Assembly (NCBI RefSeq): GCF_040807025.1
Contig: NC_090946.1
Location: forward strand, 7,172,001 to 7,236,000
Direction: 5' to 3'
Source of the DNA: Struthio camelus
Lineage: Eukaryota; Chordata; Aves; Struthioniformes; Struthionidae
DNA length: 64,000 nucleotides
The notes below the pieces were generated by a model that did no database searches, had not been told where the DNA came from, and saw only the letters and a program-made list of their open reading frames with translations. Shown here one piece after another: positions 19,001-61,167 of this stretch. The first letter of the stretch is position 1. The number at the start of each line of letters is the position of its first letter. The position numbers were made by a program, and so were the translations under genes.

Positions 19001-20550
19001 CCCTGCATTGTAGACGTACCTGTAGTGAATATCCCACCTTTTCTCTCTCTCTCTCTCTCAAAAGGTTTTTCTGAGGCCAAGATTCATAGCTGGCAAGTAA
19101 GCAGAGTTCAAGATAGAGCAAGATACTCCAACATCACATGTATCAATTAGCCTTGGAACAAAACCACATTCTGAATACTGTTCCTGGTCAGATGTGATGA
19201 GGCTGTTGTTATCCAAGAGTGCTGAGTTGATGGAGCTTTACTTGCTCTTCAGCATCTCCGGAGCAAAGTTAAAAAGTAAAAACCCTTCCTATTAATTTCA
19301 CTTACAGCCCTTGAGCTGCAGTTTCACGATGCGTGCTTAAAAAACAAAAGGTGGGAAAATAACCAGGCATTTTTCTACTCTGGTGCATAGTCTCTAAATG
19401 TGCACAAGTGTGAAGATATTTGAGCTGGTGTCGCATGAAACTGGCTGAAGTCTGGCAAGGCTTAATGATCTGGTCATGGCAGCAACCTGTAAGAGCCATC
19501 TCAGATCCCAGAAATAAAATATCTGTACTTTCCAAGTTTATGCATTGTCGAGTATTCCAGCATCCTCAGATGAAAGAAATTTGACCGTACTAAATGAAAG
19601 AAAGCTGACTGCAGTAAAGAAAGCAAATGAATGATGGAAAATATGGAAAGCAAGCTATAGCATTTGAAATTTAAATTTAGTGGACTGAAAATTGTTTTCA
19701 CTTCTGTGAGCATCAAACATCCCCTATCTAAGGAGGATCAGGGAACTATTGGCCTTGGGTTGTTTTTCAAAAGACAGAGCAAGGAAGCAAACGACGCTTT
19801 TCACATACTGATTTATTTGTACAGAAGCTGATTTACTCCTATTTTCACACTTTCCACATGTATCAGAAGGCAAGAACTCCAGGGAATATGCCAAACGGTG
19901 TGGCATGTCCCCACAGCTTAGTAGGGACAAAAAATAGCAGTCAAATAGGAAAGGTGGTGAACGGAAGTCTTCTCACCCATGGAGTGACACGCCAGCAGTT
20001 GGACACTTGCTATCGACGTAATTCTTTCAAACAATTTTGCTCACCCCGAGGGCCAGAAGGCCAATATGCAATAACTACAAAAACTTTTCTGGAAAAACTG
20101 CTTGTGAAAGCAGGCTGTCTTTGCCCTCCCTACGTGATGTGGCGTGGCACACGACGAGCGATACCTTTCTTAAAGGTATGTTTCTGGGAGCGACCGCTGC
20201 AGCTACCAAAGGGCCGTTGCTGTACATGTGTGGCAGCATCCCCCTGCTACCCTCGCTGTAGGCACCCACTGAAGTCGCTACAGTACCTGCAAGAGCGATA
20301 CTGGGAGAGAGGGAATCCCCAACACTTGAGCAGCGCACCACCACCACCCCCCCCCCCGGGGGCCCGGCGCGCCCCTCACCGTGGCGTCCTGCCCGGCGTG
20401 GCTGACCAGGAGGCGGGCGCCTCCCGGGTGCCGCCGGCAGAAGCGGCTGATGTCGTACACCTTCCTGTCGATCACCAGCCAGCGCTCCTGCGGCTCCGGC
20501 CCCCGGCCCGTGCGCAGCCCGATCTCCGCCCAGGTGAAGCGCCGCGGGGC
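10010..20550 (-). CDS. FADS1-like fatty-acid desaturase (tandem copy A), start codon unresolved
   Basis: Twelve minus-strand exons: about 20550-20380, 17761-17651, 16839-16642, 16239-16138, 16021-15893, 14410-14350, 13701-13625, 12751-12654, 11928-11832, 11184-11105, 10383-10258 and 10061-10010 (TAA). Exons 2-12 equal those of the copy at 51.5-61.2 kb in length and phase, all borders are GT/AG, and there is no internal stop. It encodes an N-terminal cytochrome-b5 domain (HPGG, then AFH in exon 2) and a membrane desaturase with boxes HDLGH, HSQHH and QIEHH (the last split across exons 10/11), ending LDAYLHK. The family works in the ER on polyunsaturated acyl-CoAs. Motifs such as GQDAT and [13 protein letters not shown] place it nearer FADS1 than FADS2. 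Oddities: no in-frame ATG lies upstream of the RRFTWAEI block. The frame is open back to a TAA near 20730, and the nearest ATG (20587) is one base out of frame. The coding part runs to at least 433 residues. Unusual changes include WWTLLH where copy B has WWNHLH. It could be functional with an unseen 5' exon, or be losing function. Confidence 0.85.
14009..14036. repeat. Near-perfect hairpin, 13-base arms
   Basis: TTACCTGTG and CACAGGTAA face each other across a two-base GT. Extending outwards gives 13-base arms with one mismatch (AACA against CGTT). It lies in intron 6 of the FADS1-like gene. CAGGTA/TACCTG cores can bind zinc-finger E-box proteins, but that is a possibility and not shown here. 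Confidence 0.8.
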
Positions 20551-20830
20551 TCCCGGCCCGCTCGGCGCTGCCCGGCAGCGGCACCATCCCCGCTGCCGAT
20601 CCCGGCGCTCCGCGCTCGGCCCGGCCTTTAGGATCCTCCCTCCCTCCCTTCCTTCCTCCTTGCGGCCAGCCAGCGCCCGCGTTTGCTCCTCCCGGCTTTT
20701 CGCCGGAGCCGCGGGAGCAGGGAAGCCTTAGCCTAAAACGCGCTTCAACCCCCTGGTTGAATCGGCGAGCCGGCACCCCCCGCCCCTTGCAGCTCCGTCT
20801 GGATCCGACGGGAAAGCGCAAGTTACGCCT
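20380..20830 (-). promoter_or_regulatory. CpG island and presumed promoter of the FADS1-like gene (copy A)
   Basis: CG-rich, CpG-dense sequence covers exon 1 and about 280 bases upstream of it, in sharp contrast to the AT-rich DNA on either side. An inverted CCAAT (ATTGG) lies near 20868. No TATA box was seen. Immediately upstream is a run of 24 T (20903-20926). The transcription start is unknown; a further 5' non-coding or coding exon cannot be excluded. Confidence 0.6.
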
Positions 20831-20902
20831 GACGGCAAAGCCATGCCCACGGCCCTAAGAAGTCAGTATTGGGTTTGGGAACCTGCTGAGCAACCCCCTT
20901 TC

Positions 20903-20926
20903 TTTTTTTTTTTTTTTTTTTTTTTT
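20903..20926. repeat. Poly-T run (24 bases)
   Basis: An uninterrupted run of T just upstream (in gene sense) of the copy A CpG island. It reads as poly-A on the gene strand and could mark an old retroposed tail or a nucleosome-free stretch. Confidence 0.9.
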
Positions 20927-22919
20927 GCATTTCCAGTTTTCCAGCGCTCCCAGCAGGAACAGGGCAGGGAGGAGACGACTTCCACGCTGCTGCTACAGTG
21001 CGAAAGACTCTTCTCCCATCCCTGGGCTACGCCTGGGATGGCGCGCACAAAATGTTACAATAGATAACATGCTACCAGCATAAGTGCTTTTGTTCTCCCG
21101 CCCCCTCTTTCTTGCTTGCAAAATTGCTAAGTAAACTATTGATTTTGGGGGGGGGGAATAGAACTATTAACTTCTGGAAATGAATATTAGTTACAAAATA
21201 GCACTTGGTTCAGCTATTTTCTATCCTTCTAAAGCAGTCATAATAGCCACCTGACTTTCTTTTAGCTTAAAGATAGACCATAAAGTCTTGAAAATAATAT
21301 ACAACACACCTGATTCAATGATTTCTTCATTCCATACAAAAGTCCATATTAAAGTCTGCATCAGTATCAATCTGGATGGAGGAGAACACAACTAGGACAG
21401 AGTTTTCTAAAGCATTTGATCAAACCTTAAATTAATGTTTCAGTTACTACTATCTTTCAATAGTTTGTAATATTCCATTTGCATTATTTCCTATACGTTT
21501 GTAACATCTCTCTCGTCTCTACTTTGCACAGTTTTCCCCAGTGTTCATTTGCTTTTGAGTCTGCTTGGGCTAGCAAAGCGCTCTCTCGACAGTAATTCTG
21601 CAGTCTACGTTTATTTTTAGAAATGTTGATCCAAAGAACCACGAGGAACCCCATATAGTTAGAACAGTTTAAAGAGGTGTTTATGACTTTTCTGCTTTAA
21701 AGGGAGGTGTGGAAAGACACAAAAGCCCATTACTCAAGCCAATTCTGAACGACAGCCAATGAAATAAGATGCTTTAGAAATAGGCTTTATACTTGTCCTC
21801 CTTGACCTGTTTCTTTGCTTCTCCCCTTTCACAGTAGGGTGTCGGAGACAAGGGGAGACATGCTCATCCTATGATGATCACAAGCCTCAGTTTATTTGCG
21901 CACTCTTATGATTTATATAACAGAGTTAATTAGTTCATACATATTGCAACAGCCAAGCTCCTTATAGGTTTGATACAACTTAGTGCTTATCTTGCAAAAC
22001 AGTTACTCTCGTGTTAACGTACGTGAGTCCTTCTTAACCACAGTCAGTTATTTACAGCTTCGTTTGTGCTGATTTAGTATTTGACCCTCCTTTCACATCT
22101 GCTTCTTCAAGCACTTCTTCAGACACGAACTTCGCGTGCTTTTTATTGCCCTTTGGCATGTAGCCATCTTGCAGTGAGACTTCCCACAGTAGGGAGTCAA
22201 AAAGCTGGTTTTCCTTCTTGTTCCTGGGCTTTGCCATCCCACACAGTCACTCTCAGTACTTTTTACAGACCTTATTTTTGTTACATTTGAGATCAGGTGT
22301 GTACTGATGCAGTGGATACGACTTAGGGGCACAGCAGAACTTGTTTCTTTTAGCTTCCCTCCTACACTGAATCCTCACTACTGAGTATTCCCCAGAGAAG
22401 GAGGTAGAACTCAGTCCACCTTGTCCTAATTTCATACCTCCTTAGCTGCTTTTTCTGACTCCAAAGCTCCCTGCAAAGTTAAATTAGCTTCCACACCACA
22501 ACTGGTGTTTGGGAACTTAATGTAGAAGTATTAAGCAGCCCTGGCAACCTGGATATTTCAGGAGATAGGTAACAGCGTCACTGGAGCTTTAGATTTTGAA
22601 AAGTGTCCTTAAGCACCCAAAACGGCAGCCAGGCAATTAAGTTCTTTCACGGATGAATGCCAAACCTTTGGACAACCGAATCTTTAATTACTCAAGAATG
22701 AGCCACGCACAGCCCATTCAGAGAAGGAACTCACTGTTGTGTGGTCAGTGCACCGTTCATGACAGAGGCTCCAAACTGTAGACATTACTCTGATAGAAAT
22801 GCTGATAATAATAATTGCTATTGTATCAATTGACTGCTGTTTGCAATGGAATGATATGTTTGATAACAATTCATTTATCTGAACCATAGCTGTCTATCAC
22901 ATGAAGTTGCCAACTACTC

Positions 22920-22963
22920 TTTTTTTTTTTTTTTTTTTAAACTGGAACCTCCCCCCCCCCCCC
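22920..22963. repeat. Poly-T then poly-C homopolymers
   Basis: Nineteen T (22920-22938), a 12-base spacer, then thirteen C (22951-22963). Low-complexity sequence and a likely site of length error. Confidence 0.9.
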
Positions 22964-22989
22964 GAAGCTGAATGTATGCATTTCCAGTA

Positions 22990-25530
22990 TTGCAGGTCTC
23001 TGTTTTCACATTTTGCAATCTGTCCTTTCATAATAAAAGATCTCATTTACTGAAAACAGAAACTTCAGATTATGACTTGAGAATACATCTACCTGATACC
23101 CACTTGTTCCCTTATATAGCCCACATTTTTGTGCTCTCTAATCCATCCTTCCCTTCCTTGCGTTGGGGTGATGTGAACCGAACCTGTGGCACGGTGCTTT
23201 CTTTCACGAAGCCTGAAAGAAAAAGTAGATTTTGAGTGGGGTTAAATGGACCTTGTATGCAGGTTAAAATCAGAACACTGATTTTCCAAACTGTGCTGTA
23301 GCACCTTATAAGTGCTTAACGTATTTGCTGGCTCCGAGGAGGAATGTTAGTTCCCTTTCCGCGAGCCATGGACCACATGGCAGTTCTTGAACACCAGAGA
23401 AACATTAACAAGACAAACGGCACCAAAGAGGTGTCTGGGGAGACCAAGCATGTTCAGGTTTGGACAGGAACTTTCTCTCCACTGATAGCAGGATCATCAA
23501 TAAATCTCAGGAGCATCACTATCTATCCTCTTCTGCCATGACTTGGGAAACCAGACAAGGTGGGATCACATTCAGTTATGAATGCTGTGTGCGTTTGGAA
23601 GACAGAATGGAAGATGGTATTTGTTTCAAAAAGTTTTAGAGGCCACGATACTAAATAGCATTATTGTAGACTCCTTTTGCCTGCACAAATGCTGAAAAGC
23701 TGGAGTTTAATGTTTCCAAATGAAGTGCAACCTGGATATTGATGGACTCCATCACCAGTTTCCACACTCAGAAAATGCGCTAATGAGTAATCCTACAGGA
23801 TTGGGGATGAGTAGCGCCACACTTTAGACCAAACATGTCCCTATCTGCTAGTACGCTATTTTATGGCATAGGCTTATTCTTTCACCCTGGCAGGTGAGGC
23901 AACTGCCAATATACGTGCAACTTTCTTGCCATTTACTACAATTCAAAATATTTATCAGAGGCAGAAAGAAGACACATTATTGATTTGCCTGATAACCAAC
24001 ATATCAGAACCACTGTGGCTTTCTATTTTTGCTATTTTGAACTACCATAACATCAATTCAGGCTGCATCTTCTGTTATAACACAGTAATATCTTTCTAAT
24101 GCGTTCCTTTTCCGTCACAGTTGTGGCCAGTGTTAAGAGTTTCAGTAACAAAAGATATTATTAATTTCAACGACACAAGTTGTTGAAAGGGTGTAATCAG
24201 AGCAGCCAGCCACAAAATAGACCCCAACATCTCCATAAACAGGAATCTCTGAAAACACTGCAATGGTTTTGGGGTATTTTTAAATGGGAAGGAGATAGTA
24301 TCTCAGGCCAGGAGCCTCTTAAAAGCCTGGTGGTTGTACAGCACATAAATGAGCAGAAATTTTTTCCTGTTATTAAGTGATTCAGCAAGATCTGCCTTAT
24401 CAGCTAAGCTACTTAAGCATCTAGGACTTCTGCTGCATAACAGATGTGCAACCATTATCTTCCAGGTGTTTCTAAGTCTTAGGAGAATGCCAATAAGCTA
24501 CCTAAATAACTGCCTCATGATTGATGCTCAGAATGAATCTCTGCAAAGAAATAAAGAATCACTTAACTTTTCCTGCTGAGTGCTTCTCAGATTGAAGTCT
24601 TCACAGAATCGGCCTCGTCATTGGCAATTCACCAAAAATTATGCCCGTCACCTCCTAGACAGCTTCTAACTGTTCTGTGCTTTTTAGCTTTCATTGTTCA
24701 GTGATCAAGCTGGCAAATATAAACAGCAATGGGCTCGGGTAAAAGTAGAACAAAACATCTCTTACACTCTTCATAGCTTTCACAAAAGCTGGTTACTTGA
24801 AGAACATGAAAATCCTTACAGATCTCATACCATATCCATAAGAAAATGAATCTTAAGCAAGCTGTTCCTTGTTTCCCTCCAGTTCAAAATCCCATAACTA
24901 TTTTTGCATCCTGGGGCTAGTTAATGACCATCAGCTCCCCCACTACTTCTGTGAATGAAAGATCAAAACACCTCCTCTAAAGCCACACAGAGGAAGCACA
25001 TCCTTGAAGCAATAAGCCTCTGCTGGCAAGGATCTTTAGCAAGTTTTTAGAAATTCTTCCTTGCACCTCGTTCACGGCCCTGAACACTAGCCTAGAAAAG
25101 ACCCAAGTGAGCAAGCCTCTGTTAAATACGTTTCAGTGGAGTAAATGATGTGGCAGAGCTGATGCTGGTTGTATTCCTTCCAGATGTTCCCCACTGCTCC
25201 ACTAGTGTGCTCCACAGTTAGCTAGCACCACGTTGAGAGGTCCTCCTGATAATGACACAGCAAAGTTTGTTAGAGCTACTTTGTGGAAATTTCTGAAAGG
25301 TTAAATAATGTGACCCAGTGGAGGTCAGCAAAGAGACAAAGAATGTGCAGAACAGCTAGAAGTTCAGAATAAAAAAAAATACGGTATGACTGGATGGGTG
25401 GCACTGGCAGTACTGTATCCTTGCATTTTCATCTGTTGCAACATGTGCTTTCATAATAACAGATCTTATCTACTGCCCCCTAAAAAGCATCAGTGTATGA
25501 CTCAAGATTTGCAGCACAAACATATCTGTC
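22990..25530 (+). repeat. Pair of diverged direct repeats, about 100 bases each
   Basis: The segments at about 22990-23090 and about 25425-25530 share an ordered set of words: a TTTTCA...TTGCAA block, CTTTCATAATAA, AGATCT, TACTG, then TATGACT. The best 28 bases differ at only 3 positions, while the rest aligns loosely with gaps. This could be two copies of an old dispersed repeat or a remnant of a local duplication. I do not recognise the family. Confidence 0.45.
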
Positions 25531-28367
25531 GAATAGAAAAATGATATAATCTCTTTTCTGTCATAGCATGCTACACCCTTTTGGCTAGTAAAACTGATGA
25601 TGTCCTATTCTGGTGATAGCTGCACCCATGATCACAGGGAGCGTGCCTCAACCCCTGGCAGAAGTTATGGAAATAGATGGAAGCATTCTCCCCCTAACTT
25701 GTCTTCTCTTTTAACTTCTTAAACTCCTTAAAAAAACCCTACATTATTCCCATTTGCTGCACTCCAGATTGCTTTTCAAAGCACCAGATCACCAGTTACC
25801 ACATTTTTGTCATACTTCTACCTAAATCAGACCAGAAGTTCCTATACAGTGCTGAAGAGGCACTAAATATGCAGCCCTACATGTCTGAACAGGGCAGATG
25901 AGAGCCTCGAGGTGGAGGAGAGGCTTCCCAGAGCCATGGAAATTCAAAACACATTTACAACCCATCTGAGCTAAACTATGAATACTGTCGCAAGGACAGG
26001 GTAATGACTAGGTTACCTTACTGGGTAAGGGAAAAGAGGGACTTGGACTCTTATTTATATTCTTTGTGGGATGGTGGTTTGCGGGAACCATTGCTATACG
26101 CTGCAACTAGGGAAGAACAGCTCACTGGATACTCAGTCTGATGTATTTTTCAAATTTCTCTCCAACTCAGGCTACACAGCAAAGGAAACTGGCATTCCTC
26201 TAACAGTCTGGTTCCTGGGGGTACAGTAACATGGAATAACTTCTAATACTACTAACAGGACAAAAAGGAAAAGATAATCTGAAAAAGATGCTGGGTATGA
26301 GAAGTTTTGGGAGAAGCGTGTGCTCACATGCTTAAAGATTCTGCACAATAAACCACAGCGCAGATTTTGTAACACCAATGGGGCTGTGATTTCTCTCATC
26401 AGCCTTGTTCCTCGCACCTCAAACTTAGCAAGGCGGCTGCTGGTGTGCATCGCAACTGCAGTAGAGCACCGAAAGGCAAGACACAATAAAGGATCACACA
26501 CCACCTCTACTCCAATCTACACATGAAATAAAACTAAAGTGCCTGATCACCTAGTACCACAGGAAGCATTCCTCCTGTATTAAACAACATGCAGGAATTT
26601 CAGCAACTGAAAGCTTTATCAATCTAGGTAAACTTTGCTTTGTGTTATCTTGTTCCTTTTCCCAGTATAGCTGTTCTGCAAACTGAGACACCTGAAAACC
26701 TGGAAACAGTTAAAATATGTCAAAGCCAGTCATCTGAAAAATTGAAAACATAGACTTAAGGTCATGCCCAGATCACCTTATCTTTACAGTCTTTGAGTGA
26801 TTTCCTAATCTACCAATCCCCCTCTTCCTCTCCTCCTCCCCTGACTATTACTTTGTTTCAGGACAGCAAAGAGAATTAGCCTACGTTTTCCCTCCCAGGC
26901 CAAACATTTACATCTAGACCTAACCTTAAGCCTCTAACTGGAGTGCCTAAGTTAAGGGGCCAGGTGCTTTAAACTCTGTGGCCAATGCAATGAGATGGGC
27001 GATTCAATTTTAGGTAGGCCATAGTTTATCCCCTATGGATTACTATCCTGCGATAGAATTTGAACCCTTTTATTCTCTTGCCCATGAGCCTGGCACTACA
27101 CTTGCACTTACCACTGGACATGAGTTACGCTGGTTATTTCAAAGGACACATGTAACGCTGTCCTCTGTACGCAAGGGGGTCAGACGGAGGGGCTCAGACC
27201 CCGTGGAGATTCTTGGCTCTTCCAGATAACCCTACGTCACAGCATTGCTAAACTGGGTTCTCACCATCCAGCTCACACGGCAAGAGTACCTGGGATATTC
27301 TCAGCTGATTTCCACTGCATACTGCCAGTCTGGCGGGGAGAGAGGAATTAATATATTGTCACTCTTAATGTCACAGTTCTGGGCTTTCAAAAATGTGGTT
27401 TACAGCCATAATTTCTCCCTTTCCTAATCTTCAGAAGTTGCTGTTGTGCTGAAGGTAGTATTTCGAAAAGGCCCAAGATACAGTCTAGCAACTCCTATGT
27501 TTTAGCAACAACAAAATCATTGCAATTACAAAAGCAATCTCAAATTACATTATGGAGCAAGTGAAATATGTCTTTTATTATAGGCCAATACAAAGTCAGC
27601 AGAGAGACAATATAACATTTAGAAGTTATATTGCCACGGACCAATGACAGTGGCAGGGAGAATACAGAGAAACCTGGAATCACACACACCCCCAAAGCAA
27701 ATTACAGAGAAACTTGTGGCAGCTTTCCACAATAACTGAATATATCATCCAGAAAAAGAGAAGGGCATTCTGTATGTAAATGCTACTGCACTCTTTCTTT
27801 CTCTTTTTCCTATACAGCAGCAGCTGTATAGGCAGCCCAAATTTAAGACTAAGATAAAACTGAAGTTCTTGAGTTCTACTCAGATTCTCTCTGAGCTCCT
27901 TCCACTTGTTTTGGACAGTTACCAACTTACCTGCTAACATTCTCTTTCATAATTGAAATTGTACTTTCAGCTCTTATCATCAGGTCTCCTGTTGTTGTTT
28001 TATTAACAATTGAAACATATTTTAGAAAAAGTCTAAAGAAGCAAGTAAATTAGAAAAGCAAACAATCAAAAAAACCTTTTGCAGACCATATATATGAGTA
28101 ACCAATGTGCATTCACCACCTCTCACCTTTAGTAATGAGCCCATACGATACTTCTGTTTTTCCCAAGGGAAACAGAAAATTAAAATATTGGTCAATTATT
28201 CAACCAACCTCAACTGAGATTGGGTGTGTTGCACACTTAGAATTGTCTTACAAAATCCCAGACACCCCCTCACTCTAGGGGAACATTCTATTCACTTTTA
28301 TTTGAGGGAAAGGAGAGGGAGCAAAAAAGGGCAATATAATTAATTCTGCCAATTAGCAACCAATCAG

Positions 28368-29280
28368 CAACCTCAGCAAGTTTGCTGATGATACTGAACT
28401 GGGGGAGTGGCTGACGTGCCAGAAGACTGTGCTGTCATTCAGAGGGACCTGGACAGGCTGGAGAGCTGGGCGCAGAGGAACCTCCTGAAGTTCAACATAG
28501 GCAAGCACAAGGTGCTGCACCTCGGGAGGAAGAAGGCCAGGCAGCAGGACAGGCTGGGGGTTGACCTGCTGGCAAGCAGCTCTGCCGAGAAGGACCTGGG
28601 AGTGCTGGTGGGCAACAAGTGAAGCATGAGGCAGCAATGTGGCCTTGTGGCCAAGGAGGCCAATGGGATCGTGGGGTGCCTGAGGAAGAGTGTTGCCAGC
28701 AGGTGGAGGGAGGTGATGCTGCCCCTCTCCTCAGCCCTGGGGAGGAGGCCTCCCCTGGAGTCCTGGGTGCAGTTGTGGGCTCCCCAGGACAAGAGAGACA
28801 TGGCACTACTGGAGAGAGTCCAGCGGAGGGCTACCAAGATGATTAGAGGGCTGGAGCATCTCTCCTCTGCAGAAAGGCTGCGAGAGCTGGGCCTGTTCAG
28901 CCTGGAGAAGAGAAGACTGAGAGGCGATCTCATCAATGTGTGCAAGTATCTGAAGGGTGGTGGTGGTGGGGGGGTGTCGAGAGGATGAGGCCGGTCTCTT
29001 CTCCGTGGTGCCCAGTGACAGGACAAGAGGCCACGGGCACAAACTGAAGCACAGGCAGGTCCACCTGAACCTGAGGAAAAACTTCTTGACTGTGAGGGTG
29101 AGCGAGCACTGGAAGAGGTTGCCCAGAGAGGTGGTGGAGTCTCCTTCGCTGGAGACATTCAAAACCCGTCTGGATGCAGTCCTGGGTAATATGCTGTAGA
29201 GGACCCTGCTTGAGCAGGGAGGTTGGACTAGGGAGATCCGACCTCCCTAGGTCCCTGCCAACCTCAACCGTTCTGTGATT
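28368..29280 (+). mobile_element. 5'-truncated CR1 LINE (reverse-transcriptase 3' end and 3' UTR)
   Basis: Plus-strand translation gives the C-terminal part of CR1 ORF2 in several frames: KFADDTELG, then VIQRDLDRLESWAQRNLLKF and AEKDLGVLVGNK, then [16 protein letters not shown] and [13 protein letters not shown], then LFSVVPSDRTRG and REVVESPSLETFKTRLDAVL. The frame breaks near 28620 and near 28980 (a GGT/G run), and there is no upstream RT or endonuclease region, so the copy is dead. The 3' end (CCAACCTCAACCGTTCTGTGATT region) matches the usual CR1 tail. It is little degraded, so it is younger than the other CR1 relics here. It lies between the two desaturase genes, on the opposite strand. 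Confidence 0.93.
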
Positions 29281-29978: not shown

Positions 29979-30013
29979 ATATATATATATACATATATAT
30001 ATACACATATATA
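29979..30013. repeat. AT/ACAT microsatellite
   Basis: Alternating TA with two interspersed CA steps. Purely a simple repeat. Confidence 0.85.
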
Positions 30014-32555
30014 AGAACCTGAATTCTGACCATGACCCAGTCATCTATGTATTCTTTGAAGGTTAAAAGAATTAAGACCTATATAGCTTTTGCTTCAGAT
30101 CCAAGCTCTTTTGATGCCAAGAAACGCTTGAAAACATGGAGTGTAACCACTGTAGCATCTCAGAAGTGTGAAGTGCATCGAGGGAATCACCTCAAAGCTA
30201 AATGTTCAGGAAATTAGTTGAACCACCACCAGCATAGAAAGGTATTTTGCAAAAGCAACCGAACATGTAGGGATGGCAGACAGTAAATAGAATTTATTAT
30301 GAGAATCAGTAATACAACAGCTATAGCTCCTATTAGACTGTGTTTATAATTAGTTCCATACCTATTGTGGTAAAAGTTTTAATTTGATGGATGTGCTGCC
30401 AGGACCCTTAGGATGAACTTCAAGCATAAGCCGCTTTAGGCACAGTTTAGGCTTAGCTCCGTATTCCAAACCCCTGTGGTTTACCACCTAACATATTAGG
30501 AACATGGGATGAAAGATTGACAGGTCTCAAACCGGTGTCAGAACAAGCATTCATAAATCATGACAAATACTTATGTATTTGCTTGCACAATCCTTGCATA
30601 GCCTCCAAGGATCAACTGTGCGGTCTTTTATGGATGTCATCAGCACCAGCTGGCTCAAGAATCTAATCTTTTGATTTACATACATAATTGTTCAAAGTCT
30701 AAGTCAATAGTCTCAGGACTACTGTTATCAGAAGATTATTTCATGCTTTTATATTTTTGTCAGAAGATTATTTCATGCTCTTCATTTAAAGCTGACCTGC
30801 TTTGTTGAAAGAAAAATTGGCACAAGTGCAGGAGTTTAACTGCTCCCAATTAAGTTTTACTTCAGCTTTTACAAATTACAAGTCAATGGAGGCAGCAAAG
30901 AGAAACTGTTTATAGGAGTTTATTCAGCGTATCTTGATTTGTGGGTGTGTCACACGGTAAGACAAAGGAGAAACGGGGAAAAACTAAGTTTGCAGGAAGT
31001 ACCCCTGGTGATAGTTTGAGAGCTGAAATGAGAATTGTGAGCCATGATCTAAGGGAACCGAGGCACTAAGGTTGGTCTACAAGTGGAATCAGAGTTATTA
31101 AATCGATTTGTCTAGGGCCATTCTGTCCTCATTTTGCAAATGGCTGTAAACATGGACAATAAATAGGTGAAATCAAGCAAGCTTTCTAATATACCTTTTG
31201 GAACACACGAGGCTGAGAAAGCAGGGCTAGGAGCTATATCCTAAGAAGGGCACTGCACTGTTGGGAGAGACTCCAAGCTTAGATTTCCATACCTCCAGTC
31301 AATAGAAAGGATGTGATTATTGAAGAATCATGTTATTAAAGCATGAGTAGGGAGGTCAGAATATTATCCTGGGAAAATCTAGATGACAATCTGATAAGCA
31401 TGAGAAAACAGGTTTTTCACTCCCTGCCTCTTTTGGAGAATACCTTTCACTCCTACAGAGAAGAAGGCTGCCTCAAGTTATCCATCTTCTTCACAAAGTT
31501 AGGTACCTAACAACCTCTCCGCTAATTCTGTTACTCCAAACTTGAAAATAATCACCACACACACTTCACCTGTATCGTAAGGCCTTGAAGAACTCACATG
31601 GTTCCAACAAAAGTCGCCATACAATCACCTTTCTAAAGGAATCGCCAGTTCTTCTCCCATCTTTCTTCAGTTTTCACTACGCGATTGTGTAGCAGGGGTG
31701 ACCTCAAGTTCTGACACACAGCTCAAGTCTTGATCTGTGTTTCATCAGTTTTTCTAACAAATATATCCCTAAATCAAAACTACCTCTCTCCTCATTCCCT
31801 TAATATATTTCATACTATGCTATTTCACAGAAACTCGGTACTGCCATTTTCAAATCCTCTAAGGAGCTCGTACCACACCGACAGGAATACACCACGCAGA
31901 CCATCCTTATTACTGAACTTGGGAAACTGTATGCAGTTCTGCTCTGGTATGCTTCAAAATGGGTGAATTCGACCCTGGCCATGTACAGAGAAGGGACACT
32001 GAGCTTCCTTGCAAATATTTGGAGAAGAACACCACCACGCACATGAAGACACTCCAGGTTGGCCTCACCAACACCCTTGTTATACACCCCCTTTGTGGGT
32101 TGCAAGCATCGATTCACAGATTGAAGACTAATGGACTAACTCACATTACTTCCTATGTAACGTATATCAGAGTTTTTAGTTAGTCCTTCACTGAACTCCA
32201 GTCACTGGCCTACAGTCATTTTCGTGATGGTTTTACACCTTTGCAGTTGATGGATCGAGAGCTATCCTTTCCTAACGGAAAGTGGCTCATTGAGGCACAG
32301 ACCCTAGATCTTTCTGTGGATTTGTGGACCAATTACATTGGTCAACCAAATAGAATGCTTTTTCCTTCAGCATCTGTAAACACTAGATTCTAATACTGCA
32401 TTTTCCTTGGGTGTCCTGTCGATCTGCCTGGATGATTAATCTTGGGAGGGAATAGACTGTGTTTTGAAACTACATATGTTTTGTAAGCGCTTTACACCAC
32501 CCCAGCATGAGGGATGTAAAAAGATATCACGCAACTATCACCTATTTTTTTTCCT

Positions 32556-33475
32556 CTCTCCGCTCTGTTCATGAATACAGGATTTCATCTATTTTTGTGA
32601 CTGCCAGGAGCTGACCTGTTAAGAAAAAGAAAAATCCTACCACCTAGTTGCTCCTAATCTTTGACTGGATAAACAGAGACCTCGGACTATGCCTGTGAGA
32701 TACCTCTGAAAATCCAGGCAGAGTACTAATCATTTAATCTTAGCCCTGGGTGGCCACTGGTTGCTTGTATACTGATTGTTCCGTGATTATAAGTCTAAGG
32801 AGGCAGCGATTTCAGAAACGCAGCGTGCTTCACAATACATTGGCTGGCCCAGTGCTGCAAGTGCTGCCTTTCAGATATAAAACAAAGCTTGACAGCAGCA
32901 GGGATTATCCCTGGGAAATCTGGATCTTGAAATATGACCTTCCACAGCAAGACCTCCCAGTGTTGTGGAACAGAAGGCTGATGGCAACATAATTAAATTA
33001 ATTTGAAACTAAAGGGACTGCATCAGGGACATAATGCAATTACATCTCCCTTCGCAGGAGGCATACAAAGGCCTCACGAGCTGCAGATCGAGATAAAGGA
33101 ATGAGCTCCGTTAGCCTCAGCTGTCGGAGTCAGTCCCAACCACTACTAGACCATCACAGAGATATCAGACAGAGCGAGCAAAGGATGCAACATACTCCTA
33201 GGCTATGACACCACATCCCTTCTTTTCATAGGCAGTCACTAGACACAACCTAATCTGAAGGGGACTGAAGAACTTCTGCTACTTCTAATGCCTTGGTATT
33301 TATCCCAAGACACTGACCTGTGCTTGCTTTCCTCTGCGGACGCATTTCCAATGGTGGTATCAGTGCTTGTTAGTGCTATTGTCAGCCTTGCACTTGTAGG
33401 TCCTTTTCTTGACAGGTCAGCTCCTGGCAGTCACAAAAACAGATGAAATCCTGTATTCATGAACAGAGCAGAGAG
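32556..33475. repeat. Inverted repeat: 65-base arms, 62/65 identical, 790-base spacer
   Basis: The left arm is 32556-32620 and the right arm 33411-33475. The reverse complement of the left arm matches the right arm with only three substitutions (A/G, T/C, G/A); shared words include CAGGTCAGCTCCTGGCAGTC and AATCCTGTATTCATGAACAG. Similarity fades on both sides, with weak traces beyond (a TTTTCTT run inside, an A run outside). The spacer shows no coding frame I recognise. It may be a pair of oppositely inserted copies of one short element, the ends of a non-autonomous DNA element, or a local inverted duplication. No target-site duplication was found. Confidence 0.9.
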
Positions 33476-36400
33476 GAGAGTGTCAAAAAAGGTACAATAA
33501 GTGTTGCCTTATGCTTACTCAAAAAAGCTTGAAACCTTGACCTCAGTGCATAAGAGGAACCCAGAAATCAGTGAGTGGTCAGAGAAGTTTTTGTGGGGAG
33601 GAGAGGGAGGAGAAATTCATTTGTTTTTCATTGTTTGTTTGTTTGGCTAAATACACTTTAAGCACTTTAAAGTAATTCTTAAAATACAGTTGGCACTTGT
33701 AGGGTTAAAAAAACCCCTATACTCTCCACTTAATTCCACTACTTGAATTTTTGAGTTTGACAGTCTGATTTTATATATATTCTGAACAAGGTCCCTTTGT
33801 CCTGCACGGCAAGTAGGACCTACATTTGACAGCAAGATCCTTGATTTCCACATCATTCACAAGTCAGCTTCAAACAGGTTAATAAATTACTATTTTACCA
33901 CATCAATCCTGAAAGCAAACACCTGCTACAGTCACTGTGATGCTCCCAATAGTTTTCTGCAGCAGACCAGCTATTGGTAGCCTGCCAGCATCACACTGCA
34001 GGGAAGCTTTGGACCCAGCCACGACCCAAGCCCATGTCACCTCAACCTTTACCTGTTATTCTCCTCTCCTCAGCCAGGACCTTTATCTACCCTGGAAGCA
34101 GAAAGCCAAGCACTGAAGGACAGGCACAGTAGTCACAAGCCGCTGCCCTGCTTAAGTACTTTGTGCTAAGTCCCCATGTGCACTTTTACCGTATAGAGCT
34201 TTTAAAATATTCACCTCCGTTTCCACTGCAAGCTGAGAGCTTACACAAAGCAATTAGCTGTGGGAAGTGGAGAGCAGAGAGTCAGACTGTTTGCTCATGC
34301 CCTGAGCCACTTCTGCATCTGCTGATGCACAACCCACGATCCAGTCGGAGCCTTCAGTCTGCTTTGCAAACATTAAAGCCATGCAGTTTTGCAAGGGACA
34401 CTCAAACAGGGGAAGCAGGGAGCGTCCCAAGGAAGCAAGAGGTCAAAAACAGCAGACCTAGCTGCTTTGGCTGGACCTGAGAGAAAAGGACTAGCCTTTT
34501 TGACCTTTTCTGTTTCATCTGAAAAACAAATCACAGCTTGTAAGTCACAAACACCTTCAGCTTTTTAGCTTAGTTTTTCCAAGAAAATGAGATTTACAAA
34601 GTACCTGTTTCTCAGCTCTCTCTTCCTTCCAGCCAATAACATTTGAACTCACCAAGGCCTCTATCTCGTTTCAAATTCGAGTAAAATGGGCCTAGGATAA
34701 CTTTCTACAGGAAAAAAAAACCAAAAAAAATAAAAACACAAATAAAAAACCCCCACAACTTTCAACCAGAACTTGCAACAGTTAGAGGAATAACAGGGTA
34801 ACAATAATAAATAAAGTTATTTATAATAAAGTTACAAGAAACTAGTCTATGTTAGTTAGCACTCATCAAAATACATGTGTTAGAGTAGAGTCATATCTTG
34901 GCTTGTAGATTTATTTGTAATTGGAAATGGGCAGAATAACTAAATATTCACTCTGGCTAGACTGACCTTGTTCCTGAGTCTTGCTTTCTCCTACGGTTTC
35001 AGATACAGATTTTTACTGTCAGACTAAGATTGCCCCTTTCCCTTTCTGCAAGCTGGACTGAAAGAAGAGGCTATTTGTGTGAGAGGCCCTGGAGTCATTC
35101 CTGTATTCCACTTCTTGGAGAAGAGTTTCTGGAGGAGTCTTGTGGTGCGGAGGGGAACGCAGGGACCCTGACCTGGCACCCAGACCCTGGGTCTGGGTCT
35201 TCCCCTCAGAGAAGGGGGCACCATAGGTTGACAGCCAAGAACATCTTCTGTGGTCACTGACTTAGTTTTCTCAAAAACGACATACCTTGAGGGCGCGGGC
35301 AGATTCTTTTTAGTATCCAAGGCTACGTCCAAAAGTAGATGCTAGACGAAAAAGGCCCATTGGTTGCTCCTTCCTCTGTGTCACGGTGAAAAGCAAGGAT
35401 AATAGCGCATGAGGCAAGAAGGCTGATCTGCCTTGTTTGGGCTCGCAAGCAGTAAGGTGTGTAGGCAGGTATCTGTCACGTCCTTTAGTTTATGAGCAAG
35501 CTTGAATTGTCCTCTTAATTTGTGGGAAAAAAATGTGGGATTACACTCAAAGGACAGGACGCAGAGAAGTCAGCACACATCTACAGAAAAGAAGTGCAAT
35601 AAGGCATTATTGTGATATTCACAGTGTGTAATTTTCCACGTGGTGACAGTTTTCCTTGCTGTACAGGAACTGCTCTCAAGAGGTAGTTTTTGGCTTAAAG
35701 CCATGAATTTCAAGTCCCTTCTAATCCTAGCTTCCAAACAGCCTGCTGTTATCAATTAAGCCACAAACAAAGTTAGTGTTTCACCTCGTCTTTTCTCCTT
35801 TTTCAAGCTCCTTACAAATCGATACCTTAATCGACACCAGGCTGCAGCTGGCTCTAGATCCAGCACACGTGGCATTTGTAGCTTGTGCATTGTCCTGGAG
35901 AAACAGGTCTTTCGATGTTGTTAGCTGAAGCATTTCATGCTTCAGAAATACCTAACACAAGCGATAACAGCAGTAACCCGGGGGGAACATGTTATTTCCA
36001 TTGCCATTACGTTTCTTTGCCTAGCTTTTCCAGGTTAAGTGCGCGGGACTTCCATGCAAAAGTACTAGAACTTGGACATTTACCTCGGACACGGATGTTA
36101 AGCCTGTCTCAACAGCGGGCAAAACTGCATTCTGTCTTTGTCATAGCTGAACGATGCTGGCTGGCATTGAGAGCGACCGCTGAAGTCCTGAAAGGCCAAG
36201 GAGGAGCTAAGCAGTCTGTTCTGACCAGAGCTGTTCCAGCCGCTGCAGTAAACAGAGGAATTTGCAGAAGAAAGAAAAAGAGCTTTATCCAGCTCCAGGA
36301 TAAACAGCCTGACAGTACCACAAGGGGGCAAGCTGAGATTAATTTTTCCCTAGAGTTTTTCCTTGAGAAAGGATGCACCTACAGTAGTCTAAACTGTTCT

Positions 36401-41332: not shown

Positions 41333-41350
41333 TGTGTATAATTATACACA
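41333..41350. repeat. Perfect 18-base palindrome
   Basis: TGTGTATAATTATACACA is its own reverse complement. The half-unit TGTGTATAA also occurs just before it (CCCTGTGTATAACCC), so it probably arose by local slippage and inversion. Confidence 0.85.
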
Positions 41351-44848: not shown

Positions 44849-44929
44849 TTCAGCACAAAACAGATATTTGCTCTACTGTTGTTGTTGTTTCAGCACAAAA
44901 CAGATATTTGCTCTACTGTTGTTGTTGTT
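44849..44929. repeat. 40-base tandem duplication
   Basis: A unit starting CAGCACAAAACAGATATTTG and ending in GTT repeats occurs twice in succession (44851 and 44891), essentially identical. The GTT repeat at the junction suggests replication slippage, and the identity suggests a recent event. Confidence 0.9.
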
Positions 44930-48739: not shown

Positions 48740-48764
48740 GGGGGGGGGGGGGGGGGGAGGGGGG
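48740..48764. repeat. Poly-G tract
   Basis: Eighteen G, then A and five or more G. Together with the fifteen-G run at 49389-49403 it could form G-quadruplexes on the plus strand, though single homopolymers are also common sequencing-error sites. Confidence 0.85.
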
Positions 48765-51333: not shown

Positions 51334-51355
51334 AAAAAAAAAAAAAAAAAAAAAA
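51334..51355. repeat. Poly-A run (22 bases)
   Basis: Uninterrupted A run about 150 bases beyond the FADS1 stop on the minus strand, so it is probably in that gene's 3' UTR, where it reads as poly-U. Confidence 0.9.
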
Positions 51356-51507
51356 GTCATATTAATCACTTTCATCACTGGAATTAAGCTGGGGCATCTC
51401 CCCACCTCTGGCTTAGCCAGTTCTCTCTCCTCTGTGAGGTATCTTCTTGGCAATGACCACAGGAGGCAACAAGGGTGGGGAATTCCTCTGTAAGGATCCA
51501 CTGCTTT

Positions 51508-54500: not shown

Positions 54501-57500
54501 TTCCACGTCTCAAAGAAGAGATATCTCTTTTGTGCATTCCTCCTGAAGTCTCTGGAAACCACACTATTCCTCAAGATTCTGTATTTTCCCCAAGCAAACT
54601 CTCTTCCTAACAACTCCGCAAGTCCACTACATCCACTCCATTTCCCTTTGTTCCACTGCACATTGAACTGCTGGAGGGGTTGGCTATAGGCTACCAAGAG
54701 AGGCCCAAGACCACAAAGGGGCAATGAAAGAGCTATCTCATGGCAGGTAGATGGGGCAAGGCTTGCTACAAGGGAGAGCAGGCTTTTGCAAGATGAGAAT
54801 CTGCAGCTACAAATCTCCGCGTTTCTCCCAATAATGCTTCATTTCCTGCACTGATACAGATCCATAAATCTAGGAGAAGTCACCAGTGGCAAAAGGGAGC
54901 TGACTTACCACCCATTGTTTCCGCTGCACCACAAAGTAGAATATGTACCACTGGAAGTAAAGCGGCACCAGAGCTGGGGGACCAACTAGAGTGGAAAAAG
55001 AGATTGTAGAGACATTAATCTGGCCCCTTTAAAGTGAGCTAAACTGGAAGAGGAAGTTGAGCAAATGCTGTTCATAGAACCACGCAAGGGTAGGGTTACT
55101 CACTGATGAAGAAGTACTTGTGCTGGTGGTTATAAGGCATGAATTTCTTCTTCTTTACACCAAGCTGTTAAAATAAGCAAATTACTCAGGCCACAAAGAA
55201 AGCTAAAGACCTGCACATTCACCCGCTACTTACTCTGTCAAAGAAATGCATATTTGGACACCTCCTAACCTTTGAAAGGGATGTCCTATCAAATCATGCC
55301 AGCATCCATCATGCCATTGGCTTCATCATCCCCTGGAACTTCCCTCTGCGACTTCTATGATAATTTTCCTAAGGAGAGTCTCCTTACTCTGCCTTGGATG
55401 CACTATACCCTGGGTAGTCCCTTGCAGCACAAATAATATCAAAGTGCACTGGAAGCTTTTCTCCTACAGAAGGCGCAAAGCCTCGTTGCCAAAGGCATAT
55501 CATTTATTACTCCTATGCCAATGCTACTAAGAGGCTGAAGAGCTGGGTGAAAGCCACAAACATCAGAGGACACACAGTGATATCTAGTAGATGTATACAA
55601 GGCCTACACATGACCATCCACTTGCATGACCAATTTCCTCTGGGCTATCGGGATTAACTCATACCAGTCAGCAGGCCATGAACGTCAACACCTCCCCAGG
55701 GTTCGGACCAAAGGCGTGCAGCCCACCCAAACCGCAATACTGGAGTTTGTGCGACAGGAAGGTTTTGCCGCTCTCTACAAAAGCTTCTCATAGCCAGTCT
55801 ATAGCTGGCACTAGCTAGACCTTGTTTTCATGGATCAGGGGTCCTACGAAGAGGTCTGTCCTCATGCCACCAAGAGAGAAGTCAAGTAAAAAAATGTCAC
55901 CTGCAACTTCTTTTCCTCATCCTGTTATCCGCCTTCATTTTCCTCTTCTTTCTGATTCCCTTCTCTAGCTTGTCTGCCTTGCTCCTCCATTACTTATAAA
56001 GTGTTGATTTTTCTTGTTTACTCATTAGCTTAATTTTAAGTCTGTTAACACATATTTATATCCATTCTATGCTGCCTGTCTGAAATTGTAATTCTGAGCT
56101 TAGGGTTTTCATTTTTAGTCATCTTTTTGTGTTGAAAGTGAGGCAGGTCCCTGACCAAATCTGGGGTCATTAGTCTCCCAGCTCTCTAAAACCTTCTGAA
56201 TCCTAACGCTGTAACCTCCGCAGACCTCACTAGGACTCACCTCCACAGAAAGTGTTTTTCCCAAAGCAAAAAATAAGGGGTGCATGTTAATGTCAGGGTC
56301 CTTCTGGAAGCAGTTGGGTTTAGCGTGGTGTTGGAAGTGGAGGTGATTCCACCAGCTGGCTGGTGCTCCCTGCAAGAACGGATGAGAACAGAGTGACAAC
56401 AAGAAGTTAGGTCTCATGCCTTTAGCCCTCCCTCCTTAGCAGTTCCATTGCTTTCCCTTCCTTCTTATGCTGAGACTGTTTGGGACTGCAAAGTCGCCCT
56501 TGCTAGTCTCTGGCAGCCACTCTCAGCACTTCACGCTCACCTTCAGATGGCCGATCACAAACTTGTGAAGCCAGTGGTTCCATTTGGGCTTGCTAAAGAC
56601 TGAAAGGTGTCCAAAATCATGCTGGAGCCAGCCAGCCTGGACCTAGAAGGGGGGGAAAAAAAACACTGGGAAAAAAAGACAACTCAGGAGACTTTGCATC
56701 TGAAAAGGTGTCCCTCCTCTCTACACTCACCGTTCCCACTCTCCCCATAACATACCCCCAGCTAGTGAGAGCACATTCTGCTGTTGCAGAGAATTATTTC
56801 CACTACTAATATCCAATCCAAAAACTTATCTTTAACTAAGTCATACGAATGAAATCCAAACTCAGTCTAATGACTGTTAGTCCCAGAGAGTTGTTTTCCC
56901 AGGGAAGGAAAAAAAAAAATGGAAAAAAAGATCAGGGAGCTAAGAAACAGAGCATTTATTCTTTTACTAACTGAGCTGAAATCAGCAACAAAGTATCCTT
57001 TAAGGAGCAGCTTGCTTCCTCGGAGTACTTGTAATTCCAGGGGGATTGCAGGAGAAATAGCTGGGGCTTTCAGAGCTGCTGTGTCCTCTGGGCTAAGTCA
57101 CTGCACGTTCCCATGGGAACACGAGGGCCTGGCTAGTGCATAGCGCCTTAGAGCTCTGCCCCAAGAGATCTCAGAAGCGTAGCCTGGTTTTCAGTATGTG
57201 AAGAAGGCTGAGAGTAAAGAGGGCTTGGACGGATGATGGGAAGCAACGACCAGTTTTGAGCCCGCTTTACCAGAAAGCACGTCATGGTACTGTAATTTTG
57301 CCCCTTCAGCGGAGCCCAGGGAGGAGCAGAATTATGAGGAGCCCAAAAGGATCGACATTTCTTCCACGTTTAGGGTAATATGAACCTAAATCTCAAAGGA
57401 CTGGCTTTTGGCATTTCCCAGGATTGTTTTTACCACTTGCAATGCCTAGCTGCTCACCTGGACAGTGCCTAGAAGTACTGCAGAGAAGAGGAAAGGCACC

Positions 57501-60500
57501 ATGGATGATCCAAAATACCAGATGGTGAGCCAGGCAGCAACATCCAGCAGCAGGATGTGACAGAGATGCAGCATGAAAAACGCGCAGTTGGGGTTGAGAA
57601 GCCCCATCTTCTCAACAGTTGTACGGAGTTCTCGGAAATCTTCTACCAGCCTCTTCTGTGGGGAGACCCAAAGCTGTACATTTGCTGGTCTGAAAACACC
57701 CCAGGAGCCCCTGAGAAGCTCACGTTCCCCTCTAAAGGAATTACTGTAGCAATAGGGAAAAACGGAAGGTCGTTTAGAGAGGCAAATTCGCAGTAGCTAT
57801 ATTATGAACCCTGAGGAGGCAAATAACTTGATGACACTGAAGAGTTTCTTAATAGCTGATTGCATTCACCCTCTCGACTCCCACCCACAGGTGATGGCTG
57901 CTGCAGGAAAGTAAATCCTTTGCCAGTCTGATTTACCCTTTCACACCTGTGATTCTGGACAGACTCTCTACTGTGCCTTGGTCCCACACTAAACGGGGAG
58001 AGCTGAAAAACAGAAGGTAGCTAAGAGGCCCTAAAAACACAAACTAGTAAAGACACAAAGGCAAGGAAAAGCTTCAGACTGACGAGGTGATTCCATGACA
58101 TTTATCATTTTACATAAAGAAAATTCTGGCTGCCGCTAAGGAAAGCGAGTAGCACAATTTCAACCCAAATAACCAAGTTTTTAAAGGCACTTACATTCTT
58201 GCTGGGCTCAAAGCTGGGTTGATCTGGTGCTAGTTCTCCAATCAATAGCGGACTCATATACTTTCTGACCAGTGCCTTGTCAAGATGAAATGCTATGAAA
58301 GGATCCTGAAATACAGATATAGAATCAGGATGAGAAAAACAACACTTTGGGGTGGCGGCAAAGAAAGATATTTCATGGTATCCTGGACTCAGCAGGAAGC
58401 AATCCAGCGAGTGGAGCTGGATGGACCTTTCTTTTTTTTTTTTTTTTTTGGCCACAGATCTTACTGCTTTCTTCACATCATAAAATATTATTTGAAGTTG
58501 AATTCTCTATATCATTTTCTAGCTGGAGGCTGTTATGTTATGGTGGGCTGGGCGCCCACCAAGAAACGTGGGCTCACCCCCCTCTTCTGAATCTGAAATT
58601 TTTCATTTTCTGTTGAACCCCAAGATATACCATCTCAAACTCACTTTCTCCTGTCTCTAGTTCCTCTTAAGCTTCCGTCTTATCTGTCCTCAGCCCAGTC
58701 CTTCTCAGGCCCCGTACCCTGAAACGGGAGTCAGACTAGGAAGGCAGACAAAATGGTAGCACAAACACTGAACCAGCTAGCTGAATGGGTCAAATAATGG
58801 GGTGAGAAGGAAATAGGTCACGGGAGCTCACCCACGCCAGCCTCTCAAGAGCCCCAGGTTGTTGCAAAGGTGTCTTCTTGTCCACCTCATCCTTCCACAT
58901 CTTCCCAGCTCAGCTCTGCTTTCTTGCTAGCTGCCTCCCGTTCTCTATCTGCTTCCACTCCACCATCCTGAAGAGTCCCCTAATTACATCTCGTTTCCTC
59001 TTTGTGGTTCAAGAGCTCCCAGCTAGTGAAATCGGTTACTTCCACCAACTAAATGAAATGTCAGTCTCCAAGGCAACCAGGCAGCCAGGTACTACATGTA
59101 TTTGTAACCAGTAGGGATTATCACTGTATTTAGATTCTATCTCACTGCCGAGACCAGCTTCCCTGAGCACACAGGGCAATTTGGCATCTAATTCCCGTTT
59201 ATCTCCTTTGGCTTCTTTCTCTGCTGGCAACCTTTGCATATGCTTTACAATCTCCCTCAGCTTAAGGGTGCTTTTTGTTTTTTTTCTTTCCTGAGCCCAG
59301 AGCTGCCACTGCACCAGATCAGCAAGTTCCCTGCACGAGGTGCTGTTCAGCCGTGTAACTACCGGCTCATCTTTACAAGCTTTTCCAATGAACTGCCCCT
59401 TTAAAAGCTCTCCGGTCAAGAACCGGGTTTAAAAAACAGCTGATCCAGCCAGCTCGGGGTTCAGTCCCATTCGTACTCCAGCAGATCTAGCATCGTCTCC
59501 GCTCAGAGCTATCTGAATACAGGAGGGAAGAGGAGAGAGGGATTTACATTTGCGTCTTCTCACTGGAAGAGGAGAAAAAAAAAGAAAACACGAAAAAGCG
59601 GGAGGAGAATGTGGGCAGAGCATCGGAGGATGGTACCACAAGTTTAGACCAATCATTACAATAGCAGCTGAAAAATCTGGCAGTGCAATCTCAACGGGAG
59701 GTTGAGGGACTTCCTGCTGCGCCTTCTAGAAAATCCAGCGCTGTAGCAGTGCTCAGCAAGCACGGAGGAAGGGTGCTCTTTCTTTACCTTCTGTCCTTCT
59801 GCTTTTTCAGGAGCCTGATTCTTTTCCTTTCCTGAGCAAAACTATTCAAAACGAAAGCTGGAATTTACTTGTCTCGGGTTCCCAAGAGGTCGGCAGTTCA
59901 GTTCTACCCCAAACAGCGGCACAGATCCTAACGCCTGAAGGATGCAGCCGGTTACGATCCAACCATCTATCTGCGTTCGCTCCTACGTACCAGCGGTCCC
60001 TAGGACCAACGCATTTCTGATCAAACAGTGGCGACGGGGCTTACAAAAAGCATGGGCTTATCAGACCTCACAAAGGATGCGTACGTACGTGTGTTATCTC
60101 AGGCTTTCCTCTATACGCACGTTACGAGCTAAAGGAAAGCACCAGGTCTCAACTTCCATCCTTTTTCTGGCCCGTGACTAGCATCAAAAGGGACAACGTT
60201 AAATTGAAATGTAGTCCCTCAAAACACCCTGGAGTTTCAAACTGCATGCCTGCCCTCGAGTCCAAGTACTAAATTTGGAAAAACGTAAGCTTTCCCTATT
60301 ATGAGAAACCCAAGCAGCCACAGGAAGGGAACCACCAGTACTCTTTGCTCCTGCTCGCAATTCTAACACCGTTTACTGAAGTTTGTAACAGCAGCAGGCG
60401 TATTCAGACAGGACTGGTTGTGGTTTTTTAAAGATCAAAACGCGGCTATAACAATACTTCACACTAGTATCATCTCTTAGAAACGTTCTGCAGGAACGTT

Positions 60501-61167
60501 TAAAGTTAGAGGAAGATGGTTGCGGCCATATACTGGCCAATAACAATTGTATCCGCGCGCATGCTGGCGTAACTATGTACGCAGCAGGTATCTGTGTTCA
60601 GATCTGGCCAGAGACCAGTTCCGACTGGGCGCGTACAAGATGTGAGTATTCGCACTCGCTGCACGCGTGCAAAGATGCTTGCTTTTCCCCGGATCTGTGA
60701 GCCATTACGCACGCCGCATCAGCACACGTTTCGAGTTACTCCTTCCAAGATTTCACTTGCTCCTCAAAGCAATCAGCCCGGGACAGAGTCCCAGAACTAA
60801 CTTGCATCCGGGGACACTTTGTCTCCGAATATAACTTCCCTCCACACACACACCCCTCCTCTCCCCCCCCCCCCACCTTTTCGATCCTGAACCTCCGCAT
60901 GCAGTGGGCAGCGGGCAGGAACACACACACACACGCACGCACGCACCACCACCACCACCCCCCCTCCCGCCGCGCGCCCCTCACCGTGGCGTCCTGCCCG
61001 GCGTAGTGGCTGATGACCCGGGCGCCTCCCGGGTGCCGCCGGCAGAAGCGGCTGATGTCGTACACCTTCCTGTCGATCACCAGCCAGCGCTCCTGCGGCT
61101 CCGGCCCCCGGCCCGTGTGCAGCCCGATCTCCGCCCAGGTGAAGCGCCGCGGCCCGCAGTCGCCCAT
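51508..61167 (-). CDS. FADS1: FADS1, acyl-CoA Delta-5 front-end desaturase (tandem copy B)
   Basis: Twelve minus-strand exons: 61167-60985, 58305-58195, 57655-57458, 56642-56541, 56369-56241, 55164-55104, 54985-54909, 54036-53939, 53592-53496, 52860-52781, 52350-52225 and 51559-51508 (TAA). All borders are GT/AG and in phase, giving 437 residues, close to the usual vertebrate FADS1 length. Residues 1-75 form a cytochrome-b5 domain with HPGG (45-48) and a second probable heme ligand at H68. The desaturase boxes are HDFGH (172-176), HFQHH (209-213) and QIEHH (375-379), which bind the di-iron centre. Hydrophobic helices occur around 122-160 and 265-318. [18 protein letters not shown] and HIPMHID match FADS1 rather than FADS2. 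In the ER it should desaturate C20 polyunsaturated acyl-CoAs (for example dihomo-gamma-linolenate to arachidonate) using cytochrome-b5 electron transfer. I chose the ATG at 61167 because its context (GCCATGG) is strong; an in-frame ATG at 61230 is weaker. Assignment to FADS1 against a lineage FADS1-like copy rests on motif reading only. Confidence 0.92.

Follow-up and report, generated by a model that had tools for sequence, protein, structure and literature searches.

Two tandem desaturase genes lie on the minus strand of the window, the whole 64-kb stretch of Struthio camelus DNA that was analysed. Their first exons are nearly identical, silent sites included, and the rest of their coding sequence has diverged. 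Comparison with other birds makes it very probable that recurrent interlocus gene conversion keeps exon 1 of the two genes, A and B, alike while exons 2–12 diverge, and indicates that this conversion is confined mainly to exon 1.

Two desaturase genes and their first exons

The features on which the comparison rests are given below.

20587-10010, minus strand: gene A (FADS1-like), 12 exons with GT-AG introns (splice model)
20380..20587, minus strand: gene A exon 1, from the only nearby ATG at 20587-20585 (splice model and three-frame translation)
20419..20544, minus strand: homogenised part of gene A exon 1, 42 codons (RRFTW...HPGG), agreeing with gene B at 41/42 residues and at every shared silent site
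20398..20418, minus strand: gene A patch ARLLVSH, which appears to escape conversion (motif comparison with bird and squamate A proteins)
20336..20399, minus strand: gene A resumed identity (20399-20367), then a G-run and TGG repeat (A-B comparison)
17761-17651, 16839-16642, 16239-16138, 16021-15893, 14410-14350, 13701-13625, 12751-12654, 11928-11832, 11184-11105, 10383-10258 and 10061-10010, minus strand: gene A exons 2–12 (GT-AG introns, cytochrome b5 frame without internal stop)
61230-51508, minus strand: gene B (FADS1), 12 exons with GT-AG introns (splice model)
60985..61230, minus strand: gene B exon 1, with its ATG at 61230 (splice model)
61024..61149, minus strand: homogenised part of gene B exon 1 (A-B comparison)
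61003..61023, minus strand: gene B patch ARVISHY (VISHY in 9/9 bird B proteins)
60947..61004, minus strand: gene B resumed identity into intron 1 (61004-60972), then a G-run and TGG repeat (A-B comparison)
58305-58195, 57655-57458, 56642-56541, 56369-56241, 55164-55104, 54985-54909, 54036-53939, 53592-53496, 52860-52781, 52350-52225 and 51559-51508, minus strand: gene B exons 2–12 (splice model; Pfam)
20101..20900, no strand: CpG island over gene A exon 1 (window scan)
60551..61850, no strand: CpG island over gene B exon 1 (window scan)

Both genes encode Cyt-b5 and FA_desaturase Pfam domains together with an HPGG motif, a domain make-up that classes them as predicted front-end (FADS1-type) desaturases. 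The best named hits among the matches listed are acyl-CoA (8-3)-desaturases, and bird B joins other FADS1 proteins in a tree built without any FADS2 sequence; on sequence grounds we assign gene B to FADS1 and gene A to a FADS1-like paralogue. Exons 2–12 of gene A have an open frame that is under constraint (dN/dS between the two genes 0.14). From 20547 onward gene A is read in the cytochrome b5 frame; the only ATG near its exon 1, at 20587, belongs to another frame, and upstream the cytochrome b5 frame stays free of stops as far as 20727 and offers no ATG. The two frames diverge at a run of four C (CCCC, 20546-20549), where the shared tract has its upstream edge, and the break would be either a consensus or sequence error or a recent real break.

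Several other features were recorded in and around the window. To its right, at C5:7244984-7261870 (+), a further desaturase gene, probably FADS2, runs in the opposite direction to gene B, in a head-to-head arrangement. For the third bird FADS1-like paralogue, C, a search of this genome gave 24 matches, none of them close (identity at most 77%). Positions 1-6500 hold many open frames, and 3504-4028 gave a weak HEAT-repeat match (Pfam E 0.0036, below the curated cut-off), so that a HEAT-repeat gene perhaps lies left of the desaturases. A 79-base inverted repeat (94%) occupies 32552-32630 and 33401-33477, an exact two-copy 40-base tandem repeat lies at 44849-44929 and a perfect 28-base palindrome at 9668-9695. 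Scanning the window for tRNA genes and Rfam families produced no match.

Base-by-base alignment of 20415-20547 with 61020-61152 bore out the initial annotation in that 1/133 bases differs, a C/T change at 20513/61118 giving Arg against His. The residue matches noted there for exon 2 (24/37, 0.649) and exon 3 (44/66, 0.667) were likewise recovered in per-exon counts. Synonymous divergence, which it had asked to have computed per exon, was 0.036 in exon 1 versus 1.19 in exons 2–12 (dS, gene A vs gene B, Nei-Gojobori), and the 1.5 silent changes counted in exon 1 by that method all fall inside the patch. The difference in silent divergence between exon 1 and exons 2–12 is significant by Fisher's test, with fractional counts taken as whole numbers (p 1.4e-13). 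Before the patch, codons are identical at 43/43 positions where A and B share a residue, which has a chance of about 10^-7.9 given the extreme codon usage of exon 1 itself. As the initial annotation had argued, purifying selection on the protein is thus an insufficient cause, and we rejected it as sole explanation since silent sites are identical before the patch.

The longest A-B runs are 99 identical bases and 134 bases with one mismatch. When the 432 codon columns were permuted 20,000 times, no permutation reached the observed run length, the longest one-mismatch run in any of them being 80, and the longest such run outside exon 1 is 38. A whole-genome search (1.45 Gb, 262 contigs) with the 133-base stretch as probe returned 2 matches, the two exon 1s, and no others; this search leaves simple repeats aside and assigns scores to its top candidates alone. 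Within the window, near identity that includes silent sites therefore stands in paralogues that are otherwise diverged, as is characteristic of interlocus gene conversion. Exon 11 was considered as a second converted exon (126 coding bases, 88% DNA identity) and rejected, since its dS of 0.69 marks it as conserved rather than converted; nor did it show a within-clade A-B excess in the clade test described below (24/24 relabellings, 4 clades).

Edges of the shared tract and the patch within it

The initial annotation described identity as stopping abruptly at both edges. This holds upstream, where the edge lies at 20547 and the N-terminal codons of A and B beyond it are unrelated; downstream, identity instead skips a short patch and then resumes. 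The patch occupies seven codons, 20398-20418 in A and 61003-61023 in B, in which 2/7 residues are the same, and 9 mismatches fall within the 14 bases 20400-20413. Past it, identity continues for 33 bases (20399-20367 and 61004-60972), crosses the splice site into intron 1, and is followed by a G-run and TGG repeat common to both genes to about 20336 and 60947. Since the resumed stretch consists in part of constrained sequence (the AGQDAT codons and the splice donor), it carries less weight than the block before the patch. The tract measures 134 bp with one mismatch, or about 210 bp if the patch and the intron part are included. Copying through a transcript was considered and rejected: because A-B identity runs beyond the splice site into the intron, the template was DNA.

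Among the matches listed, the patch motif is L[IL]xSH in 16/16 bird A proteins, VISHY in 9/9 bird B proteins, and I-L-x-[SG]-H, nearly the bird A form, in 7/7 squamate A proteins. As bird and squamate A share the motif, it is older than birds, and the patch is best read, from these alignments, as an old island spared by conversion and left standing while the 42 adjoining residues were exchanged. That it is instead a recent compound mutation, acquired by gene A after conversion, is extremely improbable: the difference is compact and alignable with small gaps, as such a mutation could be, but the same motif is found throughout bird A and almost unchanged in squamate A.

Aligned to solved cytochrome b5 chains, the patch corresponds to the seven residues between HPGG and AGGDAT. 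Acidic residues at that cytochrome b5 site assist docking with partners. A peak of divergence amid conversion is a recognised signature of a difference kept by selection, as described for opsins in the available part of PMC3924837. The patch could also have been kept mechanically, by two separate tracts or by heterology that blocks copying, and as a rival to this last step only we give that reading an appreciable chance, though we lean against it. Nine mismatches in 14 bases could halt strand exchange, and the coding and splice-site bases beyond the patch are constrained anyway, which weakens the evidence for one tract; against this, the patch was retained in 16/16 bird A proteins while adjoining residues were exchanged in several clades.

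Comparison of the paralogues across birds and other reptiles

Three protein searches (the best 120 of 1857, the best 120 of 138 and 75 of 75 matches) gave 204 different proteins, which are cluster representatives at 90% identity. Trees were built from 63 of these and the two window proteins, with 32 non-bird proteins of our own selection; other species were compared as proteins only, and silent sites were compared in the window alone. Bird proteins left out of the trees were P0004 (Aquila A, model without part of exon 1), P0014, P0026, P0044, P0144 and P0146 (extra models of included, or near, species), and P0015, P0019, P0033, P0073, P0100, P0115, P0184, P0185 and P0192 (no or partial exon 1). 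The extra C proteins P0142, P0148, P0149, P0156, P0158, P0162 and P0163, the FADS2 protein P0196, and the unnamed fragments P0125, P0126, P0128 and P0129, which have no desaturase domain, were also omitted. Apteryx A (P0009), whose model lacks exon 1, was used for exons 2–12 only, and the exon-1 tree omits both it and Pelodiscus.

In the tree of exons 2–12 (65 sequences, short search, SH-aLRT supports), bird A forms one clade of 17 sequences (99) and is joined with squamate A (100), and bird B forms one clade of 9 (95). The partner of window B is Apteryx B (87). Among the A sequences, the other 15 from birds form a group (96) that excludes window A and Apteryx A; these placements make a palaeognath origin of the window most likely. 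As bird A groups with squamate A, the A/B duplication is dated by this tree to before the lizard-bird split. In the exon-1 tree, window A and window B are sisters (99/81) with Apteryx B next (99/91), Strix A and Strix B are identical, and Calidris A groups with Alca B (100/88). Since this tree has few columns, about half of its forks are open; AU tests on exon 1 nevertheless reject a single bird A clade (p 0.018) and a clade of bird and squamate A (p 0.008).

Six bird clades have exon 1 of both genes: palaeognaths, Galliformes, Anseriformes, owls, shorebirds and songbirds, with 1, 3, 1, 1, 1 and 3 A proteins and 2, 1, 1, 1, 1 and 1 B proteins, respectively. A and B come from one species in only 3/6 clade pairs. 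Over the 42 residues of exon 1 before the patch, A-B identity was 0.913 within clades versus 0.810 between clades, the best of all relabellings (1/720), and the result remained 1/120 when any one clade was left out; the three same-species pairs alone gave 1/6. Exons 2–12 showed no within-clade excess in the same six clades (0.688 vs 0.688, 392/720). Apart from exon 1, the sole exon to depart was exon 3, with a slight excess (0.668 vs 0.655, 4/720) that perhaps reflects minor conversion there; in this per-exon test exons 5, 8, 11 and 12 had fewer clades and exon 7 was left out. Paralogue C, compared with A as a negative control in three clades, showed no within-clade sharing (0.657 vs 0.659, 5/6). 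Within species, exon 1 identity before the patch was 41/42 in the window, 42/42 in Strix and 36/42 in Anas, versus 0.73, 0.71 and 0.68 in exons 2–12.

Among these proteins, same-lineage paralogues are thus closer than orthologues inside the tract and not outside it. Together, within-clade sharing of exon 1, its absence from exons 2–12 and the sister exon 1s point to repeated interlocus gene conversion. Conversion as the best explanation, proposed from the window alone, is upheld by the within-clade sharing and the exon-1 tree, and bird proteins gave the opposite of the outcome named as speaking against it, namely that each exon 1 would be nearer its own orthologue than its paralogue. The proposed "recent conversion between tandem copies" needs amending: conversion stands, yet it recurred across birds rather than as one event, and the duplication is far older. 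As to direction, a Cys before HPGG in Strix and 2/3 songbird A proteins, as in several B proteins, is a possible sign of transfer from B to A. Ala at the first patch residue in window B and Falco B, as in 15/16 A proteins, is a possible sign of transfer from A to B; Ala is also present there in turtle and crocodile B.

An assembly or polishing artefact would have arisen if reads from the GC-rich gene B exon 1 had been mapped to gene A and had replaced its sequence except in the unalignable patch. This would suit the GC-rich setting, the length of the tract, which is about that of a short read, and the one-base frame break at its edge, as a consensus error could give. We regard such an artefact as very unlikely, because the tract holds an orthologous A-specific island, with a patch in the A state known from other birds, and because Strix, Anas, shorebirds, songbirds and a turtle show the pattern as well; moreover, the flanks diverge within a few bases, and the contig is 84.6 Mb long in an assembly of 262 contigs. 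Systematic error across several assemblies is a variant that stays conceivable here. Annotation chimeras, with B exon 1 joined to an A model, were rejected for the other birds because those A models bear the A patch. Still less probable is that early birds underwent conversion once, long ago, and that strong purifying selection then held the cytochrome b5 region without any later exchange. Such a history would account for the likeness of bird A and B exon 1 throughout (A-B 0.819, A-A 0.802) but not for clade-specific residues common to A and B (1/720), nor for the identical silent sites outside the patch in the window.

Outside birds, the hawksbill turtle Eretmochelys (P0031 vs P0036) has 42/42 identical residues before the patch, 5/7 in the patch and 265/373 in exons 2–12, a pattern that probably reflects independent conversion. 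No bird-type homogenisation was seen in 13 squamate and crocodilian pairs (exon 1 0.52-0.79 vs exons 2–12 0.58-0.72), including the 4 crocodilian pairs compared; one Anolis pair (0.79 vs 0.69) and one Alligator pair (0.71 vs 0.62) lean towards an exon-1 excess.

Recombination setting and known systems

The CpG-island setting of both exon 1s, to which the initial annotation had drawn attention, was confirmed by a scan with 200-base windows (GC at least 0.55, CpG o/e at least 0.65): only two islands of at least 400 bp occur in the window, each covering one exon 1. Birds are without PRDM9 and their recombination favours CpG islands, according to the available parts of PMC5519329 and PMC12047795, which fits conversion limited to two islands. 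In zebra finch, non-crossover tracts average about 32 bp according to the same excerpts; as the tract in the window is longer, a long event or several would be needed. They also report that turtles keep PRDM9 and that crocodilians are without it. Since our turtle and crocodilian results do not track PRDM9 status, the hotspot reasoning fits only imperfectly and is offered as hypothesis.

We infer that exon 1 is homogenised by repeated non-reciprocal copying of DNA between the paralogues. Breaks would arise where chromatin is open, in the CpG island of one exon 1, and the sister island about 40.6 kb away would serve as repair template. The upstream limit of the tract would be set by missing homology, the N-terminal codons being unrelated. 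Copies with an overwritten patch would be purged by selection, so that the patch survives; as it follows the haem-ligand HPGG of the cytochrome b5 domain, it may set a paralogue-specific contact. We tentatively extend this to a reading that is quite possible, if somewhat short of probable: the exon-1 CpG islands of FADS1 and FADS1-like would form a lasting ectopic hotspot of PRDM9-free, promoter-directed recombination through much of bird history, with selection keeping the seven-residue cytochrome b5 patch different between the two enzymes, as the feature by which they are distinguished.

Parts of this arrangement are known elsewhere. In a published case of tandem paralogues, the copies are likewise tens of kb apart and undergo ongoing conversion while a small protein-changing island stays different; unlike that case, the rest of the gene is saturated here, exon 1 alone is homogenised and the duplication is far older. 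Concerted evolution for more than 100 million years is described for BMP8A/B, DDX19A/B and TUBG1/2 in mammals, which share with our genes a mosaic of concerted and divergent exons and a higher GC in the concerted part (PMC2720389, in excerpt). They differ in that ours are bird genes in which one 5' exon alone, situated in a CpG island, is concerted and includes a spared patch. Islands of divergence also persist despite conversion in the GOT1 paralogues of the copepod Tigriopus (PMC3728101, in excerpt), in another organism and gene, whereas the island here spans about seven codons within one exon. The genes belong to the same family as the FADS1 expansion described for birds and reptiles (PMC3285190, in excerpt), and the term "gene conversion" is absent from the main text of that paper. 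In the available portions of the open-access literature we found no report of FADS exon-1 conversion in birds.

One small, well-bounded locus would allow recurrent conversion, CpG-island recombination and selection against conversion to be read jointly across the many bird genomes now sequenced. Exon 1 is misleading for orthology and dating in the FADS1 family, and the residues of the patch may separate FADS1 function from that of the FADS1-like paralogue.
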